Shown: in pieces, positions 21,519 through 39,348 of the stretch | How the letters are laid out: each line of letters starts with the position of its first letter | How positions within the stretch are numbered: position 1 is the stretch's first letter | Assembly (NCBI RefSeq): GCF_963665445.1 | Contig: NZ_OY762276.1 | Location: forward strand, 962,001 to 1,026,000 | Direction of reading: 5' to 3' | Source of the DNA: an uncultured Desulfobulbus sp. | Lineage (GTDB): Bacteria > Desulfobacterota > Desulfobulbia > Desulfobulbales > Desulfobulbaceae | Length of the DNA: 64,000 nt | Notes under the pieces: generated by a model | Seen by the model: only the letters and a program-made list of their open reading frames with translations | Told to the model about the DNA's origin: nothing | Databases searched by the model: none | Position numbers and translations under genes: made by a program

Positions 21519-22814
21519 ATGGATTTATTACTGCTTGCGGTCTTGATAGCCCTCAACGGCATCTTTGCCATGTCGGAGATTGCCGTGCTCTCCAGTAGGG
21601 AGGTCCGGTTGCAGAAGATGGCCGGGGAACGGCGCCGGGGTGCCACGTCCGCCCTGAAGTTGAAAAATAACCCTGCCGCCTTCCTCTCCACGGTGCAGGT
21701 GGGAATCACCATGGTCGGTATTCTCAGCGGTGCCGTTGGCGAGAATGCCCTGGTAGAGCCCTTGACCCGCCTGCTGGCAGGCTTACCCGGGTTGCAGTCC
21801 TCGGCACCGCACCTTGCCCTTGTTCTCGTTGTGGTCGGCCTGACCTTTTTCACCGTAGTGATCGGTGAATTGGTCCCCAAACACCTGGGATTATTGAATC
21901 CGGAAAAAATCGCCTCGCTGGTGGCCCGGCCAATGCGTATTCTCGCCCGTATTGCCAAGCCCCTGGTCTGGTTGCTGGCGGCCTCCTCCAGTCAGGTGCT
22001 GCGGCTGCTCAATGCCCAGAGTCAGAAGGAGGCAGGGGTGAGCGACGAGGAAATCCAGTTGCTGATGGAGCAGGGGGCCAGGGCGGGGGTGTTCCACGAA
22101 AGCGAGCAGGTGCTGGTGGCCAACGTGCTCAGATTGGATGAGCTGCCGGTGGAGGCGATCATGACCCACCGCCAGGAGGTGCAGCTTCTCGATCTTTCCC
22201 TGCCGGAGACGGAGCTTCGTTCCTTTCTTGCCCAGAGTGCCCACTCGCGCATCATTGCCTGCCGCGGCGGCTGGGATGATATTGCCGGTCTGCTGCGCAC
22301 CGCCGATCTGTTGCGGGCGGTACTGGCCGGTGCGCCGTTGGAGATCGAAAAGCATCTTCGCCAGCCGTCCTTTGTCCCCGAACATGCGACCACCACCCAG
22401 TTGCTGGAGCATTTTCGCAGGGCACAGCTGCAGTGCGCCCTGGTGGTTGACGAGTACGGCGACATTCAAGGGCTGGTGACCCTGGCCGACGTGCTGACCG
22501 CCATCGTCGGTGAGGTGCCTTCGGCCAATCTGAGCGGCCTCCACTCGATGACCCGGCGGGAGGACGGCTCCTGGCTGGTTGCCGGCTCGGTTCCCATTGA
22601 GCGGGTCCGCTCCGCCCTTGGCCTGAAAGAGGAGCTGCCCGGCGAGGCCGACCGCGCCTACCATGCCATCGCCGGTTTCATAATCCATGTGCTCGGGCGC
22701 ATTCCCAGCGAATCCGACCACTTCGAAGAACAGGGCTACCGCTTCGAAGTGGTCGACATGGACAATCACCGCATCGACAAGGTCCTGGTGACCCCGGTCA
22801 AAAACTCAGATTGA
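21519..22814 (+). CDS. Hemolysin-family CNNM/CBS/CorC_HlyC membrane protein
   Basis: 431 aa from the ATG at 21519; a TTG seven codons upstream is an alternative. The N-terminal CNNM (DUF21) domain has hydrophobic segments at ~1-20, 55-80, 90-115 and 125-145. A CBS pair follows (VEAIMTHRQEVQLLD to VDEYGDIQGLVTLADVLTAIVGE). The C-terminal CorC_HlyC domain spans ~340-431 (REDGSWLVAGSVPIERV). Relatives take part in Mg/Co efflux and resistance. The old name hemolysin is not evidence of toxicity. The 3' end overlaps the convergent TonB receptor by 17 bases. Confidence 0.88.
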   Translation: MDLLLLAVLIALNGIFAMSEIAVLSSREVRLQKMAGERRRGATSALKLKNNPAAFLSTVQVGITMVGILSGAVGENALVEPLTRLLAGLPGLQSSAPHLALVLVVVGLTFFTVVIGELVPKHLGLLNPEKIASLVARPMRILARIAKPLVWLLAASSSQVLRLLNAQSQKEAGVSDEEIQLLMEQGARAGVFHESEQVLVANVLRLDELPVEAIMTHRQEVQLLDLSLPETELRSFLAQSAHSRIIACRGGWDDIAGLLRTADLLRAVLAGAPLEIEKHLRQPSFVPEHATTTQLLEHFRRAQLQCALVVDEYGDIQGLVTLADVLTAIVGEVPSANLSGLHSMTRREDGSWLVAGSVPIERVRSALGLKEELPGEADRAYHAIAGFIIHVLGRIPSESDHFEEQGYRFEVVDMDNHRIDKVLVTPVKNSD

Positions 22815-24723
22815 GTCCGGTGAGAAAGCGGACTCCCTCATCGGGGTAGCCGTAGTGGATTTCATAGTCGGTGTCGAACAGGTTTTCCAGATTGAAAAAC
22901 CATTCCGCCTGCATCCCGGCCAGTTTGAAGGGCTGGGTGGCCTTGAAGTCCACGCTCAGGTAGTCATCCAACCGCTGGGCCTCGATATTTTCCATCTCAC
23001 TGTACTGTTTGCCGGTGTAGCGCAGGCTGGTCTCTACCCGGGTCTCTGTCCGCGGCAGGGTGGCGAGTAAGGTGAGTTTACCCTTGAGGTTGGGGGTATA
23101 GGTCAGCTCGTTGCCGGTATCCTCGACCTCGGAGTCCTGGAGGATCAGGTTTGATTGCAGGCTGAGCCGTTTGTTGAAGTTGTATTTGGCGTTGATCTCG
23201 ATCCCCTGGCGCCAGGCATTGTCGCCGTTGATCGGGCTGTAGATGAGCGTCAGCGGGTCGCGCTGATAGAGGATGGGATCGTTGGTGTCGCTGCGGAAAA
23301 ACGTCAACTGGACCTGGGCGGTCTTGTCCCAGTTGTATTCGACGCCTGCATCCAGGGCGAGGATTTTTTCCTTGTCCAGGTCGGGATTGCCGCGCACCTG
23401 ATCGATGCTGCCGTGGGCAGGCTGATAGAGCTGGCCAAAGGTGGGGATGTTGACGCTGTGGCCGATATTGGCCTTGAAGTTCCAACCCGCACCAAGCGCA
23501 TGGTGGAGGCCTGCGGAAACACCGGGGTTGAAGCCGAATCCGGTGACCCGATCGCCGCGCAGGCCGCCGGTCAGGGTCCAGTCCTGCCACTTGCGGTCCG
23601 CCTGCAGGCCAAGGCCGGCGGTGATGCGGTTGTGTTCGCCGGAGAGGGTATGGTCGAGATCGTCGTTTTCCAAGACGGCGCTGGTCCGCACCGCCCATTC
23701 ATCGGCCGTATCGTTCCAGTTGTATTCGCCCTTGATCCCCACCTTGTCGTCGTCCAGGGTGGAAACGAACCCGCTCTGGCTCTTGTCCTCCACCGTGGTG
23801 GTATCGCCATAGAGATTGAGAACATAGTCGCCGGTTTCTCCGGCCAGGCCGGTGAGGCGGCTGTCGAACGAGGCTTTTTCGTAGGATTGGCGGGCATTGG
23901 GGGTGGGGTTGTCCACCGGTCCGGGGGAACCTGATTCGGAGGTGAAGTAGCGGCCGTTGACCTCCAGGCTGCGGTTCTCGGCCAGCTCACCGTTCCAGTG
24001 GACCAGGAAACTGCCGCTGTCGAGATCCTTGTTGGCGCGTTTGCCGTCGCGGTGCTTGCCCGTGGCCGAGGCCATGACCGAAGAGCCTGATTCCAGCTGC
24101 ATCTGATCGCTGCCACTGGCTTCCAGCGTTCCGTAGGAGCCGACCGTACCGCGCAGTTTGGTCAGGTGTTTTTTCTCCGCATTCTTTTTGCTGCCGATGC
24201 CCTTGGTGACGATGCTGATCGCGCCATCGCTCGCGCCGGATCCCAGCCAGACCGGGACCGGCGGCTTGAACACGGTGATCGATTCAATGGTCTCGATGGG
24301 AATGCCGGCCAGATCGACGCTGCCGTACTGGTTGCTGTTGAGCGGGCGGCCGTTGAGCAGGACCAGCACCCCGCCTGATTTGCCCGAGCCGCGGATGGAG
24401 ATGCGCGATCCCACACCCATGGCTCCTTTGACCTCCACACCGGCCATCCCGTTCAGGGCCTCCTCCACACTGAGCATGTTGCGGTTGTCGATCTCCTTGC
24501 GTCCCATGACCTCGACCATGGCCGGATTTTTTTCCGCATACTCGCTGAGACGATCGGCGGTGACCACCATGGTCTCCATCGTGGTCGGTTCACTGCCGTG
24601 GCCGCCGCTGTCATGGGCCTGCGCCATCTGGGCCTGCACCAGCAGTGGGGCACAGCAAAGACCCAGGCAGGAAAGGCGAATTGTTCGGGAAAGGGGACGA
24701 GATGGTGCGGGCAGACCGGGCAT
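22798..24723 (-). CDS. TonB-dependent outer-membrane receptor, last gene of the minus corrinoid arm
   Basis: 641 aa with signal peptide (cleavage near VQAQMAQA) and a TonB box (METMVVTADR). The plug domain is VEEALNGMAGVEVKGAMG..GSRISIRGSG, followed by a 22-strand-like barrel ending in the typical aromatic GLNLSF. The ribosome site AAGGAGTCAGCCG supports the ATG at 24723. It lies 81 bases after DUF2149 in an operon-like series headed by a cobalamin riboswitch, so a corrinoid or related tetrapyrrole/metal complex is the likely substrate. It is distinct in sequence from the BtuB-like receptor at 39349. Confidence 0.87.
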   Translation of the reverse strand: MPGLPAPSRPLSRTIRLSCLGLCCAPLLVQAQMAQAHDSGGHGSEPTTMETMVVTADRLSEYAEKNPAMVEVMGRKEIDNRNMLSVEEALNGMAGVEVKGAMGVGSRISIRGSGKSGGVLVLLNGRPLNSNQYGSVDLAGIPIETIESITVFKPPVPVWLGSGASDGAISIVTKGIGSKKNAEKKHLTKLRGTVGSYGTLEASGSDQMQLESGSSVMASATGKHRDGKRANKDLDSGSFLVHWNGELAENRSLEVNGRYFTSESGSPGPVDNPTPNARQSYEKASFDSRLTGLAGETGDYVLNLYGDTTTVEDKSQSGFVSTLDDDKVGIKGEYNWNDTADEWAVRTSAVLENDDLDHTLSGEHNRITAGLGLQADRKWQDWTLTGGLRGDRVTGFGFNPGVSAGLHHALGAGWNFKANIGHSVNIPTFGQLYQPAHGSIDQVRGNPDLDKEKILALDAGVEYNWDKTAQVQLTFFRSDTNDPILYQRDPLTLIYSPINGDNAWRQGIEINAKYNFNKRLSLQSNLILQDSEVEDTGNELTYTPNLKGKLTLLATLPRTETRVETSLRYTGKQYSEMENIEAQRLDDYLSVDFKATQPFKLAGMQAEWFFNLENLFDTDYEIHYGYPDEGVRFLTGLNLSF

Positions 24724-24804: not shown

Positions 24805-25173
24805 TCACTGGGCGCCGCTGTCGGGCACGTAGACCATGGAACCGTCTTCAAGGCGGTAGGCAACGCCGAGCCGGTTGCCCTTGCCCTGGGCGCTCTCCTT
24901 GGTGATGCGGCTGGCCTTGATCTGGGTTCCCTTCTTGACGATGATCTCCATCTCGCCGGAGGCCTGTTGTTTCATGATCGTCATCTCGGCGTTTTTATCG
25001 AACAGATCCTGGAGGCGGTAGACGCTGAACAAGGTCAGCAGCAGGCCGACGATGAACACCAGGCCGATGTCGAAGAGGTTGGCGACCCCGGTCATGGGGT
25101 CGTCGTCACGAAAGGCCGGATCGGAAAATCCCTTGCGGCTTTTATTGGTTCGGCGCGAGCGAAAGTAGTACAT
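24805..25173 (-). CDS. DUF2149-family membrane protein (ExbD-like partner)
   Basis: 122 aa. A basic N-terminus (RSRRTNKSRKGFSDP) precedes DDDPMTGVANLFDIGLVFIVGLLLTLFSVYRL, a single membrane span with an Asp near its start. A periplasmic domain follows, ending GMVYVPDSG-like. The topology and the one-span-plus-periplasmic-domain design mirror ExbD/TolR. DUF2149 is known to sit beside MotA/TolQ/ExbB genes and CobN-like chelatases. Together with the ExbB-type gene one base upstream it probably forms a proton-driven motor serving CobN or the receptor. Confidence 0.85.
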   Translation of the reverse strand: MYYFRSRRTNKSRKGFSDPAFRDDDPMTGVANLFDIGLVFIVGLLLTLFSVYRLQDLFDKNAEMTIMKQQASGEMEIIVKKGTQIKASRITKESAQGKGNRLGVAYRLEDGSMVYVPDSGAQ

Positions 25174-25174
25174 C

Positions 25175-25780
25175 TCAAGGCTCCGTCGGCGTATGCATCA
25201 GGAGTTCGGTGGCCAACTCCATGTTCTTGATATCCTCCTCAAGCCAGCGCCGGCGCACGGTGTAGAAACAGAAGGCCACCGTGCCCACGGCCATGCCGAC
25301 CACGGTGGTGGTGAAGGCGATGACCAGATCCGAGCTGAGTTTGGTCATGTCGCCCTGACCCAGCGCCGCAAGTCCGGTCCCCATGGGAATAAGTGTGCCG
25401 AGCAAGCCGAGCGAGGGGCCGGTGCGTACCAGAATCCGCAGGCGATCCATGGATTTCCATAGCTCCAAGGTGGTCGACTGGAGCAGGTTTTCCACCGCGA
25501 TTTCCTTATCGCCCGGAGTGGCGAGCAGTTGGTTCAGGGTCTGGAGGTAACGATTGACCCGGTGGGAGATGATTGCCTTGGCCTGCCCGGTCTGCAGCAG
25601 CTGCGGCAGTTGCTCGGAGGGGCAGGATTGCAGCCGTACTCGCTCGAGCCATTCGGCGAAGAAACCGCCGGATTGAACAATGATCACCAGCACCAGAAGG
25701 CTCAGTACCAGGAGCACCGGATAGAGCAGGGAAGAGGAGACCAGATAGATAAAGGTTTTGAGCAGGGCGCCGACGTCCAT
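25175..25780 (-). CDS. MotA/TolQ/ExbB-type proton channel protein
   Basis: 201 aa with three membrane spans (~15-38, ~110-135, ~150-175). Conserved core: GPSLGLLGTLIPMGTGLAALGQGDMTKLSSDLVIAFTTTVVGMAVG, the family's proton-path segment. It starts by TAATG overlap with the DUF2162 gene. ExbB-type pentamers convert proton flow into mechanical work on a periplasmic partner, here presumably DUF2149 and TonB-like or CobN clients. Confidence 0.9.
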   Translation of the reverse strand: MDVGALLKTFIYLVSSSLLYPVLLVLSLLVLVIIVQSGGFFAEWLERVRLQSCPSEQLPQLLQTGQAKAIISHRVNRYLQTLNQLLATPGDKEIAVENLLQSTTLELWKSMDRLRILVRTGPSLGLLGTLIPMGTGLAALGQGDMTKLSSDLVIAFTTTVVGMAVGTVAFCFYTVRRRWLEEDIKNMELATELLMHTPTEP

Positions 25781-26526
25781 TAGAAGGAACTCCGAATTTT
25801 TTTATGGGTAAGGCCGAAACCGGCAATAAAGGTCAATAGGGAGAGCGCCACGAGCGGCAGCAGGGCGCTCAGGTTCTGCAATTGCCCGGGCTCATGGTAG
25901 CGGGCCAGGCGGTAGATCTTGTCGACATCGGTGAACTGGGGCAGAACCGCCATGGAGATGAGGAAGTAGGCACCGAGCAGGACCATGGCGCCGCCGAGCA
26001 GGATCTCGGACGGTTGCTGCGACAGACGTCCCAGGCCGAGCATCAACCCCATGGTCGCCAGGCTGATGCAGAGGAAGGCGAAATAAAGCCCGCCCACCAC
26101 CTGAGGGAACCGGTCGGGAAAAAGCGAGAGGCAAAAGGCGATGGCAAAGACAATCACCGTGGCGCAGACCGGGCAGGGCAGGGTCAACAGCAGCCAGCCG
26201 CGGCTGGTGGCTGCATGGTGATGGGGTTTGCGCAACAGGAGCAGCCCCCAAAGGAGCATCACGCCCGCCATGAGCAGATGCACCTGCATCCCGGATTGGA
26301 GAAAGGCCTGAATGGTTTCCAGGTGGGCCAAGGGATCGAGGAGGCGCAGGCCCAAAGCCACCAGGCCAAAGAGGAGCCCGTAGAGGAGGGCAAAGGCCAA
26401 GAGACGGACTAGTTTTGCCCCCGTGGAAGGGGTGCGCTCAAGCAGATAGGCGAGGCCTATCCCGCTTTTGCCGGCAAAGATGCCGATGCTGAACAGTACG
26501 CCCATGATCAGGCTTTTGTAGACCAC
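25780..26526 (-). CDS. DUF2162 putative transporter
   Basis: 248 aa, GTG start at 26526 with AAAGGAGAAACACT. Seven or so hydrophobic segments are present, including KSLIMGVLFSIGIFAGKSGIGL, CPVCATVIVFAIAFCLSLF and LGGAMVLLGAYFLISMAVL. The CPVC motif in a membrane segment recalls thiol or metal relay sites. DUF2162 is annotated as a predicted transporter and co-occurs with CobN-like genes. Substrate unknown; cobalt or another metal for the adjacent chelatase is a possibility. Confidence 0.8.
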   Translation of the reverse strand: MVYKSLIMGVLFSIGIFAGKSGIGLAYLLERTPSTGAKLVRLLAFALLYGLLFGLVALGLRLLDPLAHLETIQAFLQSGMQVHLLMAGVMLLWGLLLLRKPHHHAATSRGWLLLTLPCPVCATVIVFAIAFCLSLFPDRFPQVVGGLYFAFLCISLATMGLMLGLGRLSQQPSEILLGGAMVLLGAYFLISMAVLPQFTDVDKIYRLARYHEPGQLQNLSALLPLVALSLLTFIAGFGLTHKKIRSSF

Positions 26527-26639: not shown

Positions 26640-29600
26640 TCATTTTCTCCGTCGCGAACCCCAGACAAAGAGCGCCAGGATCACCAGCACAAACACGCTC
26701 GCCGCCCACTGAATGCCCGAGGAACTCAGCTCGGTGGACTCATCCTTGGTCTGAATCTCTTCCATCTTGTAGCCCTGGACATTCTCCGCCTTCTGGCCCT
26801 CTTCGGGAGCTTTGGCCTCTTTGTCCGGCTGCGGTTGCGGCTGTTCTGCCGCCTGTTCGCTTTGCGCCTGCTGCTGGTCGTTCACCTGCTTTTGTTGCTC
26901 ACCAGCAGGCACCTCATTGAGCTTGGCAATGAGCTGTGCCCGGTCGGCGGTCTGCTGCTCCAGCGTCTTCTTGGCCATCTGTTCGATGGCCAGCTTGAAC
27001 TGCTCCACCATCTTCGGGCTGAGCACCCCGGGCATGGAGATGATGTTGACCACCATCTGGTTGAGCATGGGGTTGTTGCAGGTATGGTCGCAGCAGGCCA
27101 CGCCACGGCGAATGACATTGGTCGCATATTCCGCCGCCAGTTTTTTGGTGACCTCCTCGGCCGGTTGCCAGTAACCCTTGCGCACAGTTTCCAGCATGCG
27201 AGCGGTCATGGACTGATAGGCCCAGGGGGAATTCATGTCGAAGAATTCGGCCAAATCCATCCCGTACTTGTCCTCGACATAGACCTCAAAGACCTCCTGC
27301 CACTTGTCCGCACTCACCGCATCCCGGACCGTGACCTGCCAGCCCCAGAGGTTTTCGGCAAAGTCGGCCATCTGCCGCGCACCGCCGTAGTTGTCGCGCT
27401 TCATCCCCTCGATCCACTGGGGATTGAGATAGCGGGTGCGCATCTCCCGGCCGATAGTCTTGGTCACGTCCTCCACCATCAGCTCGTTCTTCTTGCGGTG
27501 CATTGTCACCAGGGTATCCGGCGCCTTGCCGCGCACATTTTTGACTGCTAGGGACATGCCGCCCAGGTACATGAAGAAGTCGTCGGTATCGATGATACCG
27601 ATCACGTTGGTGGAACGGGAGTGGACCGCGGTATCCACCCCGCGCAGGTTCTCGGTGAAGGTCTCCTTCACCGGCACGGCCCACTTGCCCTGGCCGACGG
27701 CGAACTGGACCCGGTTGAGATAGATGTTGCTGATCGACTCATCCGAGTCCCACAGCCCGGAGGCGCCGACCATCTCCTCCACGCCGTTGCCGTAGGAGCC
27801 GACCGCTTCGGTGAAGATGCGGAACCGCGACTGGGCCTCTGCCTCCTGCTCACTCATCCCCTTGGCCATGAGGGCGGCCTTGATTGTGGCCTGGTTGCGG
27901 GCGAGGAAGTTTTCGATATCGGTCTGGGCCAGGGCCTTCTGTACTGCCTCGTCGAGGAAGAACAGTTTTTCCGGGAACATATCGCGGTAGAGCCCCGAGG
28001 GATTGATGAGCACGTCGATCCGTGGACGCCCCAGTTGTTTGCCGGGAATGACCCGGCTGCCGATGACCCGGTCGGTGGCGTCCCAGACCGGTTCCACCCC
28101 CATGAGGGCAAGGGCGGTGGACTCGTTGACTCCCTCGTTGCGGGTGGTTTCGGTGGCCCAGAGCACTAAGCCGACTTTTTCCGGATAATGGCCTTCCTTC
28201 TCCATCTTGGCGCGGATCATCTCATCCGCGGCCCGTTTGCCGATGGTCCAGGCTGCCTTGGAGGGCACCTTGGCCGGGGAAAAGCCGTAGAAGTTCTTGC
28301 CCGTGGGGATGGCGGCCAGGTTGCGCAGGGGATCGTTGCCCTCGCCTGCGGGAACGTACTCGCCCTGAAGCGCCCGGATCAGGTTGTCCATCTCCCGTGG
28401 CGGCGAGTCGACCAGGTCCTTTTTGATCTGGCCCGGGTCTGCCTGGGGATTTTGTTTTTCAATCAAGGCCAGGGTGGAGACGGTGGCATCGTCGCTGTAG
28501 GCCTTGCCAAAGGTGTGCAGGCCGTAGGGCAGGGAGTTGTCGTCGATCTCGTGGAGATAGAGGTGGATCTTCTCCATGGCCGCCTCGTCCAGGGTCTTCA
28601 GCCCCAGATCCTTGGCCATGCCGGTCTTTTCCACCAGCTGGAAGATCTGCTTCATGTACTCTTCCGCGGTCACCGCACCCTTGGCATGGGCGATTTCGTA
28701 TTGATGATAGAGGTCGTGGATCTGTTTGTACTCGTGGTGCAGGTCCGCCTCCTTCATCGGCGGGGTGAGGTGGTCGATGATGACCCCGCGGCCGCGCCGT
28801 TTGGCCTCGATGCCCTCGCCGACGTCGTCAACGATATAGGGGTAGATGTTGGGAATGGCGCCGAGCATGATCTCCGGCGGATCCGAAGGTGCCAGACCGG
28901 CCTGCTTGCCCGGGAGCCACTCGTAGGTGGCGTGGGTGCCGAGATGGATCATGGCGTCGGCGTGGAATTTTTCCTTGAGCCAGAGATAGGCGGCGATGTA
29001 CTGGTGGTGCGGGTAGAGGGTGGTGTCGTGGTAGAGCTTGAGGGGATCGTCGGTCCAGCCGCGTGCCGGTTCCGGCAAAAGGACCACGTTGCCCAGCTTG
29101 ACCATGGGAAAGACCAGGTGGCCCTCCTTGGTCATGATGGCGCAGTCCTTGGGTTGGCCCCACTGGGCGATGACCGGCTTCTTGAAGGGTTCGGGCAAGC
29201 GGTTGAACCAGGTGGTGTATTCCTCAAGGCTGACCTGTTCCACCCCGCCGGAAGCGAGGAGGTTGTCCAGTTCGCCCGGTGCCCAGGAGCCGATGTTGCG
29301 GCCGCTGGTCAGGATCATGTCTTGGATCTGTTCCTCGCTGAATCGATCCGCCTGATCGATTTTATAGCCCTCGGCCTGCATCCGCGCGAGGATGGTCTGC
29401 AGGCTACGGAACACATTGAGGTAGGCGGCGGCGATGTTCTGCTTGCCCTGGCTATGGTTGTAGTAGAGGATGGCCACCTTCTTGTCGCGGTTGGGCATGC
29501 GTTGCAGTGCTGCCCAGTTGTGCAAGCGGGGGATGAGGAACTCGATGCACTCGTCCACGGTTTCGCCGACAAAGAGGTCGCGTCCAGTGGCCGGGTCGCT

Positions 29601-30596
29601 CACCTTTTTTTTACCGAGCAGGACCGTGGGTTCGATGGCACCGGAAAACTCGGGCGTGGCCACGGCCCAGGCCGTAGCCAGCGGAGTGATGCCCACCGGA
29701 CTCTTGCGCCACTCCTCAACGGTTTCCGCATAGGGATTGATCACATTGAACAGCGGTACGTTGAGTTCGATCAGAGCCTTTTTGATATCGTCGTTGATCG
29801 CGGAGGCGAATTTGAGGGTAAAGGCCAACACCAGGTCCACCTGCGCCTTGCCCCCAACCGGAGCAAGGTACTCTTTCAATACCTTGGGCAGCGGGCCGAA
29901 GCAGGGATAGACCGACAAACCGCCAGCCTCGAGCTTGCGGATCATGCTGTCCACCGCCTCAACCAGGCCGACCTTGAGGGAATTGTTGTAGAGGAGAATG
30001 GCCACCCGCGGCTGACCCGGCCTGTAGCCCGGACGCTTTTCATACCAACTTCGGTAATCGCTCAGGTTGGTGAAATTGGTGGGACTTTCCGGGTGATGGA
30101 GGCAGATCTCCGGCTGCGGTTGGAGCGGTTGATAGCTGACATTTTGGTCGATATGGCGATTGACCACTAGGCGCACCATGTTGATCAGGTTGGCCTGGCT
30201 GGTGTGATGGTGGTAGGCCATGATCTGCCTGTCAAAGAGAAACCCCTTTTTCTCCAGTTCCTCCTGGTCGCTTGCGTGGTTGATCGCGTAGACCTTTCGT
30301 CCCTCTACCAGCTGATGCCTGATCAGGTAGTCGGAAAGATCGCCGGACATCACGTTGACAAGCACGACGGATGACTCACCGACAAAGGACTTGGCCTGAG
30401 GTGTGTTTTCCAAGTCGGCCAGGGTGAAAAAACGGGTCTCGATACTGGGCGGCAGGTCCAGAGCATCGATGGCCCGTTGCAGCTGGTAGCCGTTCATGTC
30501 GATTTCAAGAATGGCGACCTTGGCGGCCTGGGCAATACCTGCCCAGGCAAAGAGGAAAACAAGCAGGATGAATACTGGGAATCGGCGCATGTGCAC
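26640..30596 (-). CDS. cobN: Exported, membrane-anchored CobN-type metal chelatase large subunit
   Basis: 1318 aa, about the size of CobN. The chelatase family is recognisable from RMPNRDKKVAILYYNHSQGKQNIAAAYLN, MIHLGTHATYEWLPGKQAGL, IPNIYPYIVDDVGEG, LYHDTTLYPHHQYIAAYLWL and RFRIFTEAVGSYGNGVEEMV. Unusually it starts with a signal peptide (FPVFILLVFLFAWAGIAQA) and ends in a Gln/Glu-rich linker plus one membrane span (WAASVFVLVILALFVWG) and SRRRK. The positive-inside rule therefore puts the whole chelatase in the periplasm. Start: GTG at 30596 with AAGGAGCAATAA; an ATG two codons later is possible. There are no CobS/CobT ATPase genes nearby. Confidence 0.9.
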   Translation of the reverse strand: MHMRRFPVFILLVFLFAWAGIAQAAKVAILEIDMNGYQLQRAIDALDLPPSIETRFFTLADLENTPQAKSFVGESSVVLVNVMSGDLSDYLIRHQLVEGRKVYAINHASDQEELEKKGFLFDRQIMAYHHHTSQANLINMVRLVVNRHIDQNVSYQPLQPQPEICLHHPESPTNFTNLSDYRSWYEKRPGYRPGQPRVAILLYNNSLKVGLVEAVDSMIRKLEAGGLSVYPCFGPLPKVLKEYLAPVGGKAQVDLVLAFTLKFASAINDDIKKALIELNVPLFNVINPYAETVEEWRKSPVGITPLATAWAVATPEFSGAIEPTVLLGKKKVSDPATGRDLFVGETVDECIEFLIPRLHNWAALQRMPNRDKKVAILYYNHSQGKQNIAAAYLNVFRSLQTILARMQAEGYKIDQADRFSEEQIQDMILTSGRNIGSWAPGELDNLLASGGVEQVSLEEYTTWFNRLPEPFKKPVIAQWGQPKDCAIMTKEGHLVFPMVKLGNVVLLPEPARGWTDDPLKLYHDTTLYPHHQYIAAYLWLKEKFHADAMIHLGTHATYEWLPGKQAGLAPSDPPEIMLGAIPNIYPYIVDDVGEGIEAKRRGRGVIIDHLTPPMKEADLHHEYKQIHDLYHQYEIAHAKGAVTAEEYMKQIFQLVEKTGMAKDLGLKTLDEAAMEKIHLYLHEIDDNSLPYGLHTFGKAYSDDATVSTLALIEKQNPQADPGQIKKDLVDSPPREMDNLIRALQGEYVPAGEGNDPLRNLAAIPTGKNFYGFSPAKVPSKAAWTIGKRAADEMIRAKMEKEGHYPEKVGLVLWATETTRNEGVNESTALALMGVEPVWDATDRVIGSRVIPGKQLGRPRIDVLINPSGLYRDMFPEKLFFLDEAVQKALAQTDIENFLARNQATIKAALMAKGMSEQEAEAQSRFRIFTEAVGSYGNGVEEMVGASGLWDSDESISNIYLNRVQFAVGQGKWAVPVKETFTENLRGVDTAVHSRSTNVIGIIDTDDFFMYLGGMSLAVKNVRGKAPDTLVTMHRKKNELMVEDVTKTIGREMRTRYLNPQWIEGMKRDNYGGARQMADFAENLWGWQVTVRDAVSADKWQEVFEVYVEDKYGMDLAEFFDMNSPWAYQSMTARMLETVRKGYWQPAEEVTKKLAAEYATNVIRRGVACCDHTCNNPMLNQMVVNIISMPGVLSPKMVEQFKLAIEQMAKKTLEQQTADRAQLIAKLNEVPAGEQQKQVNDQQQAQSEQAAEQPQPQPDKEAKAPEEGQKAENVQGYKMEEIQTKDESTELSSSGIQWAASVFVLVILALFVWGSRRRK

Positions 30597-32636
30597 TTAT
30601 TGCTCCTTGGTGACAAAATGATCGGTGCTGACCCCGGCCACCACAAGGCCAAAGGCCTTGGCCATGAGTGGTGGGAGGATGTTGGGGGAGTTGACGGTTG
30701 CCGGGATAAGGTCGTTCTTGTCAGAGAGATGCATTCCCACAGCCGAGCACATCAGGTCAAAGGCCTGTTGGTTCACGATCAGCCCCTTGCCGGCATCGTC
30801 ACTGAACGCAAGGGCAGTCTCGATGAATCCGCCAACGACCGGGTCGGCCAGGGCCTGTTCAAGCCGGCGCGCCAGTTCCTCCTGGGGAAGGGGAGAGGGA
30901 TAGAGCTGCGACAGCCATTCCAGGCTCAGTCTTCGTTCGTCAAGCCGCTGCAGCACACCACGCCCGGCCACGATGCCGTTCTGGCCGATCAGAGCCTCGG
31001 TCACCCCGGCATGCACTGCCTTGGCAATCAGTTCTCCGATCTTGCCGTGACCGCCGGTATAGCGGACCAGCGGGCCTTCACCCTGAACCACGATCATCGA
31101 ATCGGTACCTGTACCGGTGGCGCGGTACGCCCAGGGATGGGCCGTACTGCGGATGTCGAGATCGAGTAAGGCCGCGGTCTTGGCCTCAGTGGCGGTGATG
31201 ATCGCCCGGGCCATACCCTCGGAAGCCAGTTTGCAGTTGGTGAGGAGGATGATGTTGATCGTGCCCAGGGTGTGCGCATGGCCCTCGTCCCTGGACATCC
31301 GCTGCGCATTGCCGCGTGCGCCTGCCGTTACCAGGGCGACGACCTCGATATCCTTGAACCGCTGCACCTGCACGGAGAGGTTGTCCATGTTGGCACCGGT
31401 CATGAGGCCGGAGTAGGTTGCCCGTGTGTAGCCGAGGTTCTCGGCGACGTCCGTGGTCACCTGGGCAACGCCAAAGGCCATGTGGCCAAGGCTCGCGTGC
31501 ATCGGCACGTAGGTGTTGCCCACCGCCTGGAGGCCGTCGAGGTTGCCGTCGATGGTGGAGAGGATCGCCTGGGGCCGGGTGAAGCGAACCACCAGGGATT
31601 TGAAATCCGCATCGTTGACCCGGTGGCTGACCACCTTGGCGGACTGGACATAGTCAAGATCCAGGGGGATTGGTCGCTCTTCCCGAATCCCGTTTGCGCT
31701 GACTGCCTGTTTGCTGTCGGCAAACAGCTCGGGATAGAATGAGGCCGCGAGCCACTGCACGGCCGCGCCCACCTGCGGCGTGATCTGGCAGGCAATGGAG
31801 CAGGGCATTTGGGTAAAGGCATGGTTGCGCGCCCCTTCGACGTCCTTCCAGCCATCCAGGCGAAGCATGTTGTGCACCGTTTCCATGTTGCGGTCGCAGC
31901 CGTAGATCATTTGCGGATTGAAGCCTTGCCAGGCGGCGAGATCCATCTCCACGAAGCCGCCCTTCTTGTGCCACTGGGGCGTGATGCCACCGGCCGCATC
32001 GATCATCTCGTTTTGAAAGGAATCGTCACCGGGGCAGTACAGTTTGCCCCCTCCCGCGATCACCCGCGCGACTCTTTTTCGTTTGTCGGGGGCAAGGTCT
32101 TTGATGCGTTTCCGGACCAGCTCGATCTGCTCCTGATTACGCCTGACGATTTCCTGTGCCGCCTGTTCACGGCCAACCAGGCGCCCGATCAACTCCATGC
32201 GGGCAAATCCCTCCTCCAGGGAGGTTTCCTGAAAATAGAGGATCTTGGTTGGCAGGTGCGATTCTTCCAGCCAGCGCGAAATGGCTTGCTGCTGGGAGAC
32301 CGGGGCGAGGATCAGGTCGGGATGGCAGGCGGCAATGGCGTTGAGGTCCGGGGCAAAGAAACTGCCCACGCTGGCAATGCGCAACCGACTGTGGCTGAGC
32401 AGATCCTGACGGGTCAGGCCGACAAGGATATCAGTTCGCTCGAGTTCGACCAAGAGATCGGTGATGGAGCTCAACAGGCAGACAACACGCTTAGGGGGCT
32501 CTTGCAGGGCGAGCTCCCGTCCGAGGCTATCCTTGAAAGCAAGGGGATGCCCGGTGCTCAGCGCGGACTGCGGCAAAAGGCCGCAGCCGAGCAGGAGTAC
32601 AAGGAGGCAGCAGGTAAGCAGTGGGTGGCGGCGCAT
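30597..32636 (-). CDS. Lipoprotein fusion: BtuF-like binding domain plus CbiZ adenosylcobinamide amidohydrolase
   Basis: 679 aa. The N-terminus is a lipoprotein signal (LLTCCLLVLLLGCGLLP). Residues ~35-320 form a helical-backbone periplasmic binding domain of the BtuF/FhuD type (PKRVVCLLSSITDLLVELERTDILVGLTR). From ~345 to the end it is CbiZ-like: STIDGNLDGLQAVGNTYVPMHASLGH, VALVTAGARGNAQRMSRDEGHAHTLGTINIILLTN and DLDIRSTAHPWAYRATGTGTDSMIVVQG. CbiZ removes the aminopropanol tail of (pseudo)cobinamide/cobamides for remodelling and normally works in the cytoplasm. Here it appears tethered outside the inner membrane. Its stop abuts cobN. Confidence 0.88.
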   Translation of the reverse strand: MRRHPLLTCCLLVLLLGCGLLPQSALSTGHPLAFKDSLGRELALQEPPKRVVCLLSSITDLLVELERTDILVGLTRQDLLSHSRLRIASVGSFFAPDLNAIAACHPDLILAPVSQQQAISRWLEESHLPTKILYFQETSLEEGFARMELIGRLVGREQAAQEIVRRNQEQIELVRKRIKDLAPDKRKRVARVIAGGGKLYCPGDDSFQNEMIDAAGGITPQWHKKGGFVEMDLAAWQGFNPQMIYGCDRNMETVHNMLRLDGWKDVEGARNHAFTQMPCSIACQITPQVGAAVQWLAASFYPELFADSKQAVSANGIREERPIPLDLDYVQSAKVVSHRVNDADFKSLVVRFTRPQAILSTIDGNLDGLQAVGNTYVPMHASLGHMAFGVAQVTTDVAENLGYTRATYSGLMTGANMDNLSVQVQRFKDIEVVALVTAGARGNAQRMSRDEGHAHTLGTINIILLTNCKLASEGMARAIITATEAKTAALLDLDIRSTAHPWAYRATGTGTDSMIVVQGEGPLVRYTGGHGKIGELIAKAVHAGVTEALIGQNGIVAGRGVLQRLDERRLSLEWLSQLYPSPLPQEELARRLEQALADPVVGGFIETALAFSDDAGKGLIVNQQAFDLMCSAVGMHLSDKNDLIPATVNSPNILPPLMAKAFGLVVAGVSTDHFVTKEQ

Positions 32637-32661: not shown

Positions 32662-33087
32662 TTATTTGATAAAGTATCCGGCAGAGCGCCATTGACCATC
32701 CGCTTCCTCGGTGAAAGTCAGCGTTTCCGTTGCCTGCTTTTTGAGGGCAAAGGCGGTGGTGAAACTCAGGATGCAGTAGTGGCCGTCAGGAGCTCCCGGG
32801 AGAGCGGTCGCCTCCTGAACAGAGGTGAGCGTTCGTTGTTCCAGTGCGCCAAGGGGGCTGCGGCTGGCCTGCAGTGCGTTGCTCCAGTTGGCTTGCGAGA
32901 CCGCGTTACGGAAGAAAACCGAGGCGGTCTGCCAGCTTTTCGCAAAATCTCCCGCATCGATCAGCTGCAGCCAGGATTCCGCCGCAGCAGTGACCTGCGC
33001 CTTTGGCGGTGCAGTGGCCGCGCTCAGGGAGAGCGGGTGAATACTCAACAAAAACACCGAAAGAAGAACAGTGAACAACGCTTGCAT
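32662..33087 (-). CDS. DUF4019-like secreted small protein, first gene of the minus corrinoid operon
   Basis: 141 aa from the ATG at 33087 (ribosome site AAGGAGGCCC). The signal peptide is MQALFTVLLSVFLLSIHPLSLSAAT. The mature part, with AAAESWLQLIDAGDFAKSWQTASVFFRNAVSQANWSNAL and SFTTAFALKKQATETLTFTEEADGQWRSAGYFIK, fits the DUF4019 pattern. Function is unknown. Its place directly after the riboswitch terminator makes it part of the B12-controlled operon. Confidence 0.8.
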   Translation of the reverse strand: MQALFTVLLSVFLLSIHPLSLSAATAPPKAQVTAAAESWLQLIDAGDFAKSWQTASVFFRNAVSQANWSNALQASRSPLGALEQRTLTSVQEATALPGAPDGHYCILSFTTAFALKKQATETLTFTEEADGQWRSAGYFIK

Positions 33088-33134
33088 GGGCCTCCTTGGA
33101 TTCACCGGTCATGCGCTGATAAAAGCAAAAAAAA

Positions 33135-33168: not shown

Positions 33169-33224
33169 GTCCCTTTTTTACCCGTGCTTATGATGCGAGT
33201 AGGCTTCCGTCCACGAAGCGATTA

Positions 33225-33400
33225 CTCAATTCTTCAGGTAGGTCTTCTGACTTACGGTTCACTCTACTGGCTGCGTCTTCCCGACTTGAACGTCAGTGAC
33301 ATTGATGCAGTTTTCGTCCCCGATTACAGCAGCGGGCCTGTCTCCGAATCACACGGAGTTCCCTTTTAAGCTCACACGAGCACCTGAGAATAGGCCTTGT
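33225..33400 (-). promoter_or_regulatory. Cobalamin riboswitch (minus strand)
   Basis: On the minus strand the conserved blocks appear in order: CAGGTGCTCG, AAAAGGGAA, GCCCGCTGCTGTAA, AATGTCACTG, GGGAAGACG and the B12 box AAGTCAGAAGACCTACC (33236-33253 on the plus strand). A terminator follows toward the genes. It is expected to shut off the receptor/CobN operon when cobalamin is plentiful. Confidence 0.92.
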
Positions 33401-33639
33401 TTAGACGGTTTGCTGTGAAAGTCAAGGATAATTTTTATGGGAACAATTCCTGTATTGCACTTTGTGCTCACACGCTGTGGTCCTTGTTTGCAGTTTTGTC
33501 GCGATGAAGATCTGTGATCATTCATGATTTTCTATCGATGATCCCTCTGCAGTCAAACTGCAGTATTCCCTTGGCCTTCAAGGCTATCGCAGCAAAATAA
33601 ATCTTGACTTTTGTGGGGCGATAGGTTCTATCCAGCCCT

Positions 33640-33802
33640 AGTTCAGGTGTTCGTAGGAACATAAAAGGGAACCCCGTGCAAGTCGGGGACGGGCCCGCCG
33701 CTGTGACCGAGGACGAAGACTGCATCCATGTCACTGACCGAAAGAGGTTGGGAAGACGCAGTCAAGTAGGATGATTCGGGAGTCAGAAGACCTGCCTGGA
33801 TG
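33640..33802 (+). promoter_or_regulatory. Cobalamin riboswitch (plus strand)
   Basis: Conserved blocks: CAGGTGTTCG, AAAAGGGAA, GGGCCCGCCGCTGTGACC, CATGTCACTGACC, GGGAAGACG, GATGA and the B12 box AGTCAGAAGACCTGCC (33781-33796). It is divergent from the minus-strand riboswitch, ~240 bases away. It heads the DUF3450-ExbB-TonB-BtuB-CbiK genes. Confidence 0.93.
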
Positions 33803-33870
33803 GTATTTGGTGACGACTGCGAGGACGGCAGCGTACCCGGAATGAAGTTTTTCTGCGGATAAACAGGGCT

Positions 33871-33972: not shown

Positions 33973-34755
33973 GTGGATCCCGTGGCTTTTCTTCGAACAT
34001 CGCTCGCCCTCTGCCTCCTGTTTTCGTTTTCTGCGAAAACCGCAGGCGCCCAACCCACCGAAACCGAGCGCCGGGTGGAGCAGCCGCTTCGCCAGGCCAT
34101 CGATACCAGCCAATCCGCACAGAAAACTGTTGATCAGTGGCGGGGAGACCGTGAGCGGTTGACAGCCCGCTACGAACTCCTGGAGCAGGAGATCAAACAG
34201 CTCAAGGAGCGCAACGACGAGTTGCAGACCGCGGTGGATGCCACTCGAGAACGCCTTGCCCAGAAAAAGCAGCAACTCGGTGAAATTGAACGAATCACCG
34301 GGGAAATCACCCCCTTTCTTGAAGAACTCTATACGAAACTTGCAGTGGCCCAGCAGCAAGGCCCTCCTTTTCTTCTTCAGGAACGGCAGGACCGGCTCGA
34401 AAAACTGCAGGTATTGATCAATGATCCCGGTGTCAGTGTCGGGGAAAAGTACCGTCGCCTGATGGAAGGGCTCATGGTGGAGGCCGAATACGGCACCACC
34501 ACCGAGGTCTATCAGGATCACATCGACCTTCAGGGGCAACCGACCCTAGTGGACGTCTTTCGTCTCGGGAGGCTGAACCTGTTCTATCTCACCCTGGATC
34601 AGGAGCACTGCGGCTTCTACAACGAGGCCGAGCGCACCTGGCAGCCGCTGGATGAATCCTTCCTTCGTCCCCTCAAATCGGCGGTGGCCATGGCCGCCAA
34701 ACGCCAGCCCGTGGAAATGGTCAGCCTGCCGCTGGGAAGGATGGTGCAGCCATGA
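33973..34755 (+). CDS. DUF3450-family TonB-system protein
   Basis: 260 aa. The signal peptide is RTSLALCLLFSFSAKTAGA. A long coiled coil runs ~30-110 (RLTARYELLEQEIKQLKERNDELQTAVDATRERLAQKKQQL), and a C-terminal globular part has GEKYRRLMEGLMVEAEYG and GRLNLFYLTLDQEHCGFY, typical of DUF3450. The family accompanies long-form ExbB/TonB2 systems and probably acts in the periplasm as part of the transducer. The start is a GTG (33973 or 33982), without a strong ribosome site. The stop overlaps the next start in ATGA. Confidence 0.85.
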   Translation: MDPVAFLRTSLALCLLFSFSAKTAGAQPTETERRVEQPLRQAIDTSQSAQKTVDQWRGDRERLTARYELLEQEIKQLKERNDELQTAVDATRERLAQKKQQLGEIERITGEITPFLEELYTKLAVAQQQGPPFLLQERQDRLEKLQVLINDPGVSVGEKYRRLMEGLMVEAEYGTTTEVYQDHIDLQGQPTLVDVFRLGRLNLFYLTLDQEHCGFYNEAERTWQPLDESFLRPLKSAVAMAAKRQPVEMVSLPLGRMVQP

Positions 34756-36188
34756 AAACCTTGGTTCAGATGTTGATTGTGTTCGTTGCCGGCATGCTTA
34801 CGGTCGCGCCGCTGATGGCCGCGGATATGCGCGCCTTGCCGCATCAGGCTGAGCAGGTCCGGGAGGAGTTGGCGCGAAAGGCGCAGGCGGAAAAGGCAGC
34901 CGCTGAACGGGCCGCCGCCGAAGTTCGCGCCAGGGTTTTCAGCGATCGCGCGACCCTGGAGCGGGCCGTGGCCAAGCTGGAGGCGGAAAAGAACCAGCTG
35001 AGTGCAAAGGTCAAGGCGCTTGAAGAGAGCAACAGCCAGATGGCCAGCGAAGAGGGCGGAATCAACGAGCAACTGGCCCAGACCGATGGCATGGTGAAAG
35101 AGCTGGTGGGGCAGATCCGGATCAATGCCAAGGATCTGGATACCCTGATCAGCGGGAATCCCCAGTCCGCGGTCGGGGCTCCGCCGGTGTCCTTTCTGGC
35201 TGCCGTGGCCGAGGACGAGCGTTTTCCGGGCATGGACGATGTTCGCGCCATGACCGAGGCTCTGATCGGCCAGATCAAGGCATCGGGCGAGGTTCGTCTG
35301 GACAAGGGGAAGATCATCGATCGCAGCGGGAAAGAGGTGCAGGCGGATGTGTTGTTGGTCGGTCCCTTCACCGCCGCCTATCGCCTTGAGGGAGAGACCG
35401 GTTTTCTCAACCACGCCAATGACGGCAGCAAACTCTACGCCCTGTCGCGCCTGCCCGCAGGCCACCTGCAACGCCAACTGGCCGACTACATGGCCGGATC
35501 GACCGAATCGGTGCCGGTGGATATCGGCCGGGGCGCTGCCCTGCGTCAGCTCAGCCACCAACTCAGCCTGAGCGAACAGGTCACCAAGGGCGGGCCCATT
35601 GTCTGGCCGATTCTCGCCATTCTCGTCATCGGTTTGCTGATCGTTGCCGAGCGGGCAGTCCGCCTTCTCCGTAATCGGCACTCCAACCTGCCCCTTATCG
35701 AAGAGATCCGCGAACTGAGCCGCAGCGGCGACTGGCAGGGGTGTGAACAGCGTTGCTTACAGGTGAGCGCAAAGCCGCTTGGCCGGGTGCTCCTGGCCGG
35801 GATCGGGGCGAGGTCGTTTGCCCGCGAGGACATGGAAAACACCCTTCAGGAAGCCATCCTCAAAGAGATTCCTGGGCTGGAACGGTTCCTTTCCACCCTG
35901 GGCATGCTCACCGCCATCGCGCCGCTGTTGGGACTCCTGGGCACGGTCACGGGTATGATCAACGTCTTTCATGTGATCACCCTCTATGGGGCCAGCGATC
36001 CGCGGCTGATGTCCGGCGGCATCTCCGAGGCCCTGGTGACCACCATGCTCGGTCTTTCAGTGGCCATCCCCCTGATGCTGTTGCACAACATGCTCAGTCG
36101 CGGGGTCGACCGCATGGTCGGAGATCTCGAGGAACAGGCCGTCTCCCTGGTCAACATCATTCATCGGCGGCGGGAGCAGGTATGCTGA
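34752..36188 (+). CDS. Long ExbB-type channel with periplasmic coiled-coil N-terminus (TtpC-like)
   Basis: 478 aa. The signal peptide is MKTLVQMLIVFVAGMLTVAPLMAA. An alanine/glutamate-rich coiled coil (~30-100) and a periplasmic domain precede three membrane spans (~282-303, ~400-425, ~445-465). The ExbB core is FLSTLGMLTAIAPLLGLLGTVTGMINVF and GGISEALVTTMLGLSVAIP. This extended form is known from TonB2 systems of marine proteobacteria (TtpC with ExbB). It is translationally coupled to genes on both sides. Confidence 0.9.
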   Translation: MKTLVQMLIVFVAGMLTVAPLMAADMRALPHQAEQVREELARKAQAEKAAAERAAAEVRARVFSDRATLERAVAKLEAEKNQLSAKVKALEESNSQMASEEGGINEQLAQTDGMVKELVGQIRINAKDLDTLISGNPQSAVGAPPVSFLAAVAEDERFPGMDDVRAMTEALIGQIKASGEVRLDKGKIIDRSGKEVQADVLLVGPFTAAYRLEGETGFLNHANDGSKLYALSRLPAGHLQRQLADYMAGSTESVPVDIGRGAALRQLSHQLSLSEQVTKGGPIVWPILAILVIGLLIVAERAVRLLRNRHSNLPLIEEIRELSRSGDWQGCEQRCLQVSAKPLGRVLLAGIGARSFAREDMENTLQEAILKEIPGLERFLSTLGMLTAIAPLLGLLGTVTGMINVFHVITLYGASDPRLMSGGISEALVTTMLGLSVAIPLMLLHNMLSRGVDRMVGDLEEQAVSLVNIIHRRREQVC

Positions 36189-36799
36189 TTGCCGATGCCT
36201 GGTACAGCCTGGCCACCTATTTCCGCACCGGTGGACCGGTGATGCTGCCGCTGCTGCTGGTGAGTCTGGCGATGTGGTTGTTGATCGCCAATCGGGCGAT
36301 TGTGCTGCGCAGACTCAGTATCCACCCCCTCTCCGGGCAGGAGGCCCTGGCGTGCATTCAAGGGAACCACTCGCCCGAAGCCGGCGGGAGCTGCGCCGTT
36401 GGCCTGCTGGTGCTGCGGTTTCTTGACCGTATGAGCGGAGACCCCGGCCTTGATCGCAATATTCTCGATGAACTGGTGCTCTCCCTGAACCGCAGCCTGA
36501 CCCAATTTCTTCCGCTCATCGGTATCCTGGCTGCGGTGGCGCCGCTGTTGGGCCTGCTGGGCACGGTCACCGGCATGATGTCCACCTTTGAGGTGATGTC
36601 ACTCTTCGGCACCGGAAACGCCAAGGGCATGGCGGGCGGCATCTCCGAGGCCCTGATCACCACCCAAACCGGACTTGTCGTCGCTATTCCCGGCCTGTAC
36701 ATGAAAAATTTCCTTGAGCGTCGTGCCCAGGCATTACAGCGGCAGTTGACTGCCACCGGTTACTACCTGCGCCGCCATCTCCAGGAGGCTCCATGCTGA
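36182..36799 (+). CDS. exbB: ExbB proton channel protein
   Basis: 205 aa from the ATG at 36182, which overlaps the previous stop. Three spans are present, with the core LPLIGILAAVAPLLGLLGTVTGMMSTFEVMS and GGISEALITTQTGLVVAIPGLYMKN. It pairs with ExbD to drive TonB. Having a second ExbB-like gene directly after the long-form one is the TonB2 arrangement. Confidence 0.92.
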   Translation: MLIADAWYSLATYFRTGGPVMLPLLLVSLAMWLLIANRAIVLRRLSIHPLSGQEALACIQGNHSPEAGGSCAVGLLVLRFLDRMSGDPGLDRNILDELVLSLNRSLTQFLPLIGILAAVAPLLGLLGTVTGMMSTFEVMSLFGTGNAKGMAGGISEALITTQTGLVVAIPGLYMKNFLERRAQALQRQLTATGYYLRRHLQEAPC

Positions 36800-37209
36800 A
36801 CATTGCCCGCAGCCGCCGTGCAAACCGGTCGACACCGGGGCTTGATATCGCTCCGCTGATCGACATGGTCTTTATTCTGCTCATCTTCTTTCTGGTCAAC
36901 ACCTCCTTTGTCAAGGAGACCGGGATCGAGGTCAGCCGTCCCACCGCCTCCACCGCGACCATGGAGAACAAACGCTCCGTCTTGATCGCCATCTCGCCTG
37001 ATAACCGTATTTTTATGGAGCAGCGGGAGATCGATCTGCGCGCGGTGCGGGCCAATGTGGAACGGGCCCTGGCGGAAAATCCGGAGGCCGCGGTGATCGT
37101 TGTTGCCGACAAGACCAGCTCCACCGGCACCGCTATCCAGGTCATGGACGGCTGCCGCATGGCCGGAGCGGTGAACGTTTCCCTGGCAGCCAGTCTCCCC
37201 CAGGGATGA
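36793..37209 (+). CDS. exbD: ExbD
   Basis: 138 aa. A single span carries the essential Asp: DIAPLIDMVFILLIFFLVNTSFVKE (~18-42). The periplasmic domain ends with VIVVADKTSSTGTAIQVMDGCRMAG. It forms the proton-conducting partner of ExbB and transmits force to TonB. It overlaps exbB by 7 bases and tonB by 4. Confidence 0.93.
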   Translation: MLNIARSRRANRSTPGLDIAPLIDMVFILLIFFLVNTSFVKETGIEVSRPTASTATMENKRSVLIAISPDNRIFMEQREIDLRAVRANVERALAENPEAAVIVVADKTSSTGTAIQVMDGCRMAGAVNVSLAASLPQG

Positions 37210-37892: not shown

Positions 37893-37896
37893 AACT

Positions 37897-39177: not shown

Positions 39178-39196
39178 TAAGCGAAAAGACAAAAAT

Positions 39197-39296: not shown

Positions 39297-39348
39297 AAAA
39301 ATTACAGATGATGAAAAAATACCAACTACAACCTTCAAGGAGAACAAC

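Follow-up and report, generated by a model that had tools for sequence, protein, structure and literature searches.

Exported proteins of the CobN family have been described under two names. BtuS was presented in 2018 as an exported CobN-like family, with Rodionov 2003 cited for the name (PMC6460266), and HmuS was described in 2025 as removing iron from heme with NADH and without ATP (PMC12583661). Hmu-like operons behind cobalamin riboswitches have also been noted and a role in cobalamin suggested (PMC10100974), P. gingivalis HmuS is treated in PMC13227078, and further related literature comprises PMC8531726, PMC545781, PMC8620254 and PMC10434189. Here we analyze an exported CobN-family protein encoded at 26640..30596 in a 64,000-nucleotide stretch (the window, whose first letter is position 1) from an uncultured Desulfobulbus sp. 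(contig NZ_OY762276.1, positions 962,001 to 1,026,000). We assign this protein by its sequence to the BtuS/HmuS branch, as a B12-controlled member, and we put forward as a whole reading, tentatively, a riboswitch-controlled corrinoid-acquisition machine around it, a relative of HmuS in which a motor driven by the proton motive force (pmf) would serve CobN and the membrane protein DUF2162. In what was read of the literature searched, from which subscription papers were largely absent, there was no functional account of the B12-linked form, and no paper on DUF2162 was found.

The window protein shares with HmuS of Bacteroides thetaiotaomicron (hmuYRSTUV; PDB 9D26) the CobN fold family, export, a membrane anchor and ExbB and DUF2149 partners (PMC12583661), and the window operon, like the hmu operon of P. 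nigrescens, includes a TonB receptor, the hmu operon having a membrane protein at the position of DUF2162. Both proteins have the catalytic His/Glu pair (H538/E577 in HmuS, H555/E594 in the window protein) and the Met of the head site; HmuS differs in its His254, His1209, Glu1212, Met-rich insertion, iron control and HmuY, whereas the window protein has Asp1006 and Met1009 in place of His1209 and Glu1212, carries CCxHTC, is partnered by BtuF-CbiZ and stands behind a cobalamin riboswitch. The closest printed description that we found is that of BtuS, including B. fragilis BtuS1, and of the riboswitch-preceded Hmu-like operons (PMC10100974): these proteins are exported and CobN-like and some are B12-controlled (BtuS1 is likened here by its description), but the accessible text mentions neither a connection to BtuF-CbiZ nor the CCxHTC motif, the conserved residues of DUF2162 or a core that lacks TonB. 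The cobN-exbB-exbD-tonB cluster on plasmid pSZ77 of Trichlorobacter (Geobacter) lovleyi encodes a CobN with CCxHTC, as in the window, in an operon ordered receptor-DUF2162-ExbB-DUF2149-CobN-ExbB-ExbD-TonB-receptor behind two cobalamin riboswitches; it differs in that CbiZ is not annotated in the stretch read, and its authors, in the accessible text, call the role of CobN unknown (PMC3403914). Genes PA1922-PA1925 of Pseudomonas aeruginosa are similar by description, in that a single operon under metal control encodes a TonB receptor, a CobN-like protein and a protein annotated as ExbD, but there the control is by Zur/zinc (PMC4542158). The CobN of CobNST and BchH/ChlH belong to the same fold family, and CobN has the DxDD motif, yet these proteins are cytosolic, AAA+-driven and set apart in our tree.

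An earlier note on this DNA had proposed a new kind of tetrapyrrole chelatase machine, a claim of novelty that gives way before the printed record, as exported CobN-like proteins with such partners appeared as BtuS in 2018 and as the ATP-free HmuS in 2025 (PMC6460266, PMC12583661). Exported CobN with ExbB/DUF2149 is therefore already known, as is ATP independence for HmuS; what appears to be new is the CCxHTC motif, a PCPVC/His/Lys/Met set in the membrane segments of DUF2162 and a four-gene core separable from TonB.

The exported protein and its operon

The operon reads, on the minus strand, in the order cobalamin riboswitch, DUF4019, BtuF-CbiZ fusion, CobN, DUF2162, ExbB, DUF2149 and TonB receptor; its features are given below, together with the riboswitch of the divergent operon.

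26640..30596, minus strand: exported CobN-family protein (BtuS/HmuS branch), 1318 amino acids (aa), with signal sequence, CobN core, CCDHTCNNP motif (residues 1168-1176), Q/E/P/K-rich linker, C-terminal span and SRRRK tail
33220..33402, minus strand: cobalamin riboswitch of the CobN operon (RF00174, 110.6 bits; gathering score 31.5)
32662..33105, minus strand: DUF4019 protein, the operon's first gene (Pfam)
30597..32636, minus strand: exported 679-aa fusion of a BtuF-type binding protein with the adenosylcobinamide amidohydrolase CbiZ (Pfam Peripla_BP_2 and CbiZ)
25780..26526, minus strand: DUF2162 membrane protein with Lys20, His83, Cys118, Cys121 and Met181 in hydrophobic segments (Pfam, sequence, structure model)
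25175..25780, minus strand: ExbB/TolQ-type proton-channel subunit (Pfam, alignment)
24805..25173, minus strand: DUF2149 protein with a single membrane span, whose Asp35 is invariant, and, in a low-confidence model, a small domain of beta strands (Pfam, alignment, model)
22798..24723, minus strand: TonB-dependent receptor (Pfam; the best NCBIfam match, a B12 receptor model, lies far under its cut-off, 138.6 against 599.7)
33628..33813, plus strand: second cobalamin riboswitch, at the head of the divergent operon (RF00174, 105.3 bits)

The open reading frame (ORF) of the CobN-family protein has the coordinates given in the earlier note, on the minus strand, and a product longer than the ~1250 residues estimated there; that product matches a single Pfam family, CobN-Mg_chel (PF02514), at 1033.9 bits. 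Its N-terminus, MRRFPVFILLVFLFAWAGIAQA followed by A, reads as a Sec-type signal sequence with an AQA/A-like site, and its C-terminus, SSSGIQWAASVFVLVILALFVWGSRRRK, has one hydrophobic span and then SRRRK. The positive-inside rule serves as a guide to membrane topology and, applied to the span and the SRRRK tail, it puts the bulk of the protein on the periplasmic side. The window protein would thus be periplasmic and membrane-anchored, not cytosolic like the CobN of CobNST, which agrees, on sequence, with the location that the earlier note had deduced from the same signal peptide and C-terminal span.

To find relatives, GTDB genomes were scanned with an alignment of ten DUF2149 sequences, and 395 places were confirmed; locus counts here refer to the best 80 of these 395, taken with their flanks, and they lean to relatives of the window because the places were ranked by similarity to a Desulfobulbales-like query, while ORF start sites are approximate because ORFs were chosen by length. 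A simple hydropathy scan with our own cut-off (15-residue mean above 2.0), applied to the 62 locus CobN ORFs of at least 1200 aa, found an N-terminal hydrophobic segment in 56, a C-terminal one in 60 and both in 54. Conservation was read from 60 aligned sequences, namely the window protein and 59 ORFs of 1200-1499 aa (the longer ORFs of L063, L082 and L111 were left out). The C-terminal span has SS[GSA]x[QERK]W in 51 of the 60, a conservation that appears to go beyond the need of a bare anchor.

Evidence for the cargo comes from the rest of the operon. The BtuF-CbiZ gene ends one base before the CobN start, and all 46 homologous BtuF-CbiZ ORFs of at least 600 aa have an N-terminal hydrophobic segment. 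Downstream of CobN, DUF2162, ExbB and DUF2149 follow on the same strand at gaps of 113, -1 and 1 bp, which agrees with the earlier note's placing of all three in one operon; both riboswitches and the BtuF-CbiZ gene were absent from that note. Because cobalamin riboswitches stand before both operons and an exported BtuF-CbiZ lies just upstream of CobN, the system most likely acquires corrinoids. That an exported CobN of the BtuS/HmuS branch sits here within the B12 regulon is almost certain, and the cargo is probably a corrinoid rather than heme. The genome, 5.08 Mb in one contig, has at least 13 cobalamin riboswitches (150 of 300 candidates were scored). It has one DUF2162 gene and one DUF2149 gene over the cut-off; a weak second DUF2149 match at 910105 reads as ExbD. 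No NCBIfam model reached its cut-off with CobN, BtuF-CbiZ, either receptor, CbiK or P. nigrescens HmuS, and DUF2162, ExbB, DUF2149 and DUF4019 had no NCBIfam match at all.

The block recurs. In tblastn searches with the window proteins, ExbB lies on the same strand as DUF2149 in 80 of 80 loci, CobN in 73, DUF2162 in 71, BtuF-CbiZ in 50 and DUF4019 in 4. In all seven loci without a CobN match, the contig or the retrieved sequence ends inside the block or close to it: in L061, L077, L103 and L117 the contig ends shortly past it, L055 and L089 start at a contig end inside it and have no CobN in the following 9 and 7.7 kb, and in L062 an ORF that resembles a CobN start by eye, with no Pfam match, opens 400 bases before the edge. 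A covariance model built from 11 riboswitches of the window's own genome gave 71 matches in the 80 loci. Walking upstream from DUF2149 within the gene run, a same-strand riboswitch was reached in 49 loci (those of L078, L089 and L103 rest on weak or cut-off matches), the run was cut off in 23, and none was found in 8, among which L044 and L072 have one further up on the same strand, L058 has its riboswitch on the other strand, and L109, L113, L118, L119 and L121 lack one. The B12-linked operon is found in many Desulfobacterota and some other phyla, and because it recurs across bacteria we regard the block as more than chance. The module is also patchy, since DUF2149 occurs in 11 of 95 genomes sampled from genus to order, the window's own genome counted. 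In one deltaproteobacterial metagenome-assembled genome (L111:1287-7361), BtuF, CbiZ and CobN form a single ORF of 2024 aa, which suggests that CbiZ and CobN share a side of the membrane and a job.

Active site, branch and a cysteine/histidine motif

The active-site motif of the window protein is of CobN type, not HmuS type. His555 and Glu594, which a pairwise alignment pairs with HmuS His538 and Glu577, are invariant in the aligned set (60/60 each), as is Asp1005 (60/60), and Asp1006 is nearly so (57/60). The second active-site motif, DTDDFFMYLGGM, contains DTDD where the solved CobN chains 9uk9, 9fpc and 7c6o have DSDD and HmuS has SLDH; within the HmuS motif LSLDHxxEFMGG, which supplies His1209 and Glu1212, the window protein has Asp1006 and Met1009 instead. 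At the head/neck site, HmuS Met79 (whose counterpart in P. nigrescens HmuS we take to be residue 78) is kept as window M83 in 56 of 60 sequences, while His254 is replaced, with Lys262 nearby in 57 of 60. HmuS residues 694-895, which we take to be the stretch with the Met-rich insertion, have no aligned counterpart in the window protein.

In a tree of 37 proteins, including 25 of the 59 locus CobN ORFs picked by hand for spread, an exported set of 29 rows, HmuS and the Diaphorobacter protein among them, separates from 8 rows of cytosolic CobN/BchH with support of 100/99, and the B12-linked set separates from HmuS and Diaphorobacter with 94/96; HmuS, BchH, Diaphorobacter and one paralog form long branches whose exact positions are unsure. 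That Diaphorobacter locus (plasmid, L132, 1-13150) encodes a beta-proteobacterial exported CobN amid TonB receptors, a binding protein, ExbB and an ABC permease; it lacks CCxHTC and perhaps represents a further branch with another cargo.

We rejected the idea that the window protein is simply an HmuS, for His254, His1209/Glu1212 and the Met-rich insertion are all missing. The same absences make a heme de-chelatase serving iron acquisition highly improbable, even though the protein shares the tree branch of HmuS, finds HmuS as its best match among PDB sequences and has the partners of an annotated hmu operon: the window operon stands behind a cobalamin riboswitch, whereas the P. nigrescens hmu stretch has none, and HmuY is not among the Pfam matches of the window operon. 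A plain biosynthetic CobN was likewise rejected, as the window protein is exported and its motor is absent nearby. Searching the window by tblastn with two ChlI/D-type ATPases of the same genome gave no match, and CobT had zero matches in the whole genome, in keeping with the earlier note's statement that CobS/CobT are missing nearby. The genome has four CobN genes, the others lying at 1258118-1261458 (split over two frames), 1275799-1279116 (its N-terminus fell outside the sequence taken for the hydropathy scan) and 2021499-2024729; ChlI/D-type ATPase matches, at about 1263401-1265991 and 2018667-2021257, adjoin two of them, and the genome also has CbiK.

Beyond the CobN core lies the segment GVACCDHTCNNP, in which C1168, C1173 and N1175 are invariant (60/60 each), C1169 and P1176 are kept in 59 and H1171 in 58. 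Its CCxHTC position lies past the end of the two cytosolic CobN paralogs that could be compared, the third being the one split over two frames; the motif is intact in T. lovleyi CobN, and the same place reads GSAFVTDN in P. nigrescens HmuS and CSGFVCDN in B. thetaiotaomicron HmuS. We regard this near-invariant motif ahead of a membrane anchor as a new observation, and a candidate metal site.

A core apparently separable from TonB

The remaining partners are conserved in their own right. In DUF2162, K20, H83 and M181 are found in 62 of 62 sequences and C118 and C121, of the PCPVC motif, in 61 each; the predicted structure (mean predicted local distance difference test score, pLDDT, 89.0) is a bundle of helices in which PCPVC falls where a helix is interrupted. 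This Lys/His/Cys/Met set looks like ligands for a transition metal, and a role in thiol redox chemistry is equally possible. DUF2149 has a single Asp at the head of its span (Asp35, 48/48), within an NLFD-like motif whose Asp is present in all 81 copies of the 80 loci, a position that ExbD shares; its model, one span and a small domain, is weak (mean pLDDT 67.9). The family ExbB keeps Thr129 (64/64), Thr158 (63/64) and Thr159 (64/64), which align with threonines of the canonical ExbB in the window.

Whose motor the ExbB-DUF2149 pair would be is the question on which the readings divide. It may be the plain TonB motor of the linked receptor, with CobN working independently, a possible if doubtful arrangement that is compatible with the other readings; such a role is stated for HmuUV in the accessible text of PMC10100974, and a TonB receptor is present in the operon and in 40 (tblastn) to 58 (phmmer on ORFs) of 80 loci. 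Four Lentisphaerota loci (L113, L118, L119 and L121), by contrast, have a bare DUF2162-ExbB-DUF2149-CobN block, and a CbiZ fusion, a riboswitch, canonical ExbD and TonB were all looked for there and not found; the seven other ORFs of at least 550 aa in three of them include no TonB receptor by Pfam, and in L121 no further ORF reaches this length. A canonical ExbB-ExbD-TonB set moreover adjoins the four-gene core in the window and on the T. lovleyi plasmid, and canonical ExbD occurs in 10 of 80 loci. Finally, M. acetivorans matches CobN, DUF2149, DUF2162 and MotA_ExbB and not TonB_C, a comparison of family presence only in which the DUF2162 match is possibly under the cut-off; this organism has no outer membrane.

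These observations are evidence for a CobN-DUF2162-ExbB-DUF2149 core separable from TonB, which to judge from the gene content examined is new here. On balance, the TonB-free Lentisphaerota core, the separate canonical TonB sets and the M. acetivorans families argue that the motor belongs to CobN/DUF2162, and we consider such a dedicated pair somewhat more probable than a shared one. The earlier note's idea that proton motive force might stand in for ATP gains some support from the TonB-free core.

The canonical set of the window belongs to the divergent operon.

33973..42357, plus strand: DUF3450, ExbB, second ExbB, ExbD (36793-37209), TonB (37206-37892), TPR protein, TonB receptor (39349-41355) and exported CbiK-type cobaltochelatase (41452-42357)

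The CbiK-type sirohydrochlorin cobaltochelatase downstream of this receptor has a clear signal sequence. The genome's second CbiK gene (4621556-4622410, minus strand) lies directly behind a riboswitch, and 29 of 80 loci have a CbiK-like gene, which in many of them closely follows that of the exported CobN and in most cases encodes no signal sequence. We rejected CbiK as a general second exported chelatase, because only 4 of 25 CbiK-like ORFs in the 80 loci pass the hydropathy cut, one of them a 97-aa fragment, and most look cytosolic.

What the system may do

We propose that corrinoids would enter through the TonB receptor and be captured and trimmed by the exported BtuF-CbiZ, and that the trimmed corrinoid may then be handed to the CobN cleft. 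There, by analogy with HmuS, reduction could lead to removal or exchange of the metal outside the cytoplasm, and the released metal would pass by way of CCxHTC and the DUF2162 membrane ligands to the cell interior. The ExbB-DUF2149 pair would act as a pmf motor on CobN/DUF2162 through the C-terminal span of CobN, and not, or not only, on the TonB receptor. Metal removal or exchange on a corrinoid is the reaction that we favor, tentatively, ahead of transport, insertion and a heme reaction. In its strongest form, in which ExbB-DUF2149 drives an exported CobN and a metal-conducting DUF2162 independently of TonB and the outer membrane, pulling cobalt from scavenged corrinoids and delivering it via CCxHTC and the PCPVC/His/Lys/Met set, the proposal is unlikely; if it were true, CobN would play the part that TonB has in the classical motor, with HmuS as the counterpart for iron.

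Several points weigh against metal removal by a pmf-driven machine. To our knowledge, cobalt removal from corrin is without precedent, and it is chemically hard. The CCxHTC motif could be structural or form a disulfide instead of a metal site, and CbiZ with a B12 riboswitch fits the salvage of intact corrinoids at least as well as their destruction. The DUF2162 model found no solved fold in the PDB (411 matches at E<=10, none at <=0.001, best E 0.067; TM-scores below 0.4 in the 50 matches listed), and hhalign aligned DUF2149 with ExbD over 19 columns, the Asp included, without significance (probability 1.1%, P 0.047). The Glu that precedes the TM3 threonines in canonical ExbB is Ile/Val in 58 of 64 family ExbB sequences. 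The four families are not always together, since M. jannaschii matches CobN and DUF2162 and neither DUF2149 nor MotA_ExbB, and in M. barkeri, as PMC10846266 reports, neither BtuS gene is accompanied by any of the operon found in other organisms. A B. fragilis btuS1 btuS2 double mutant, moreover, is described in the accessible text of PMC6460266 as still making protoporphyrin from heme, about twofold above its parent, and metal removal is therefore perhaps not the common function.

A rival reading is transport without metal chemistry. CobN would then be an inner-membrane corrinoid receptor or chaperone, and DUF2162 with ExbB-DUF2149 a pmf-driven permease for intact or CbiZ-trimmed corrinoid that replaces BtuCD. 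The B12 riboswitch and BtuF-CbiZ context suits this, as does an operon in which Pfam showed no BtuC or BtuD gene, a BtuD-like ATPase occurring in just 14 of 80 loci; HmuS is reported to bind a tetrapyrrole at its head/neck site, at a distance from the catalytic residues (PMC12583661), whose Met our alignment shows to be conserved as M83 of the window protein. We nonetheless consider transport alone somewhat unlikely, because the need for an invariant His555/Glu594 pair in a mere carrier is not obvious, and because another CobN locus of this genome (L002) has an adjoining ABC ATPase (Pfam) and a permease-like gene (by eye), so that the organism can probably import B12 by an ABC system.

Metal insertion outside the cytoplasm, with cobalt entering scavenged metal-free corrinoids and pmf through ExbB-DUF2149 replacing CobST/ChlID, comes close to what the earlier note had in mind. 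A CobN-type active site, the lack of an AAA+ motor beside the gene (a ChlI/D-like ATPase occurs in 2 of 80 related loci) and a pmf-type subunit adjoining in every locus speak for it. Extracellular free cobalt and metal-free corrinoids are both likely to be scarce, however, HmuS as the characterized exported relative works in the direction of removal without ATP, and the genome has two genes for CbiK, the early cobalt-insertion enzyme of the anaerobic route; we therefore judge insertion very unlikely and retain metal removal or exchange as the favored reaction.

Our findings describe an operon that would be the same type of machine as HmuS, placed under B12 control, but whose active site differs and which carries an additional Cys/His motif. 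They make two questions testable, namely whether cobalt is removed from or exchanged in corrinoids outside the cytoplasm and what role the ExbB-DUF2149 pair plays, and they indicate that the annotation "cobaltochelatase CobN" is misleading for the BtuS/HmuS branch.

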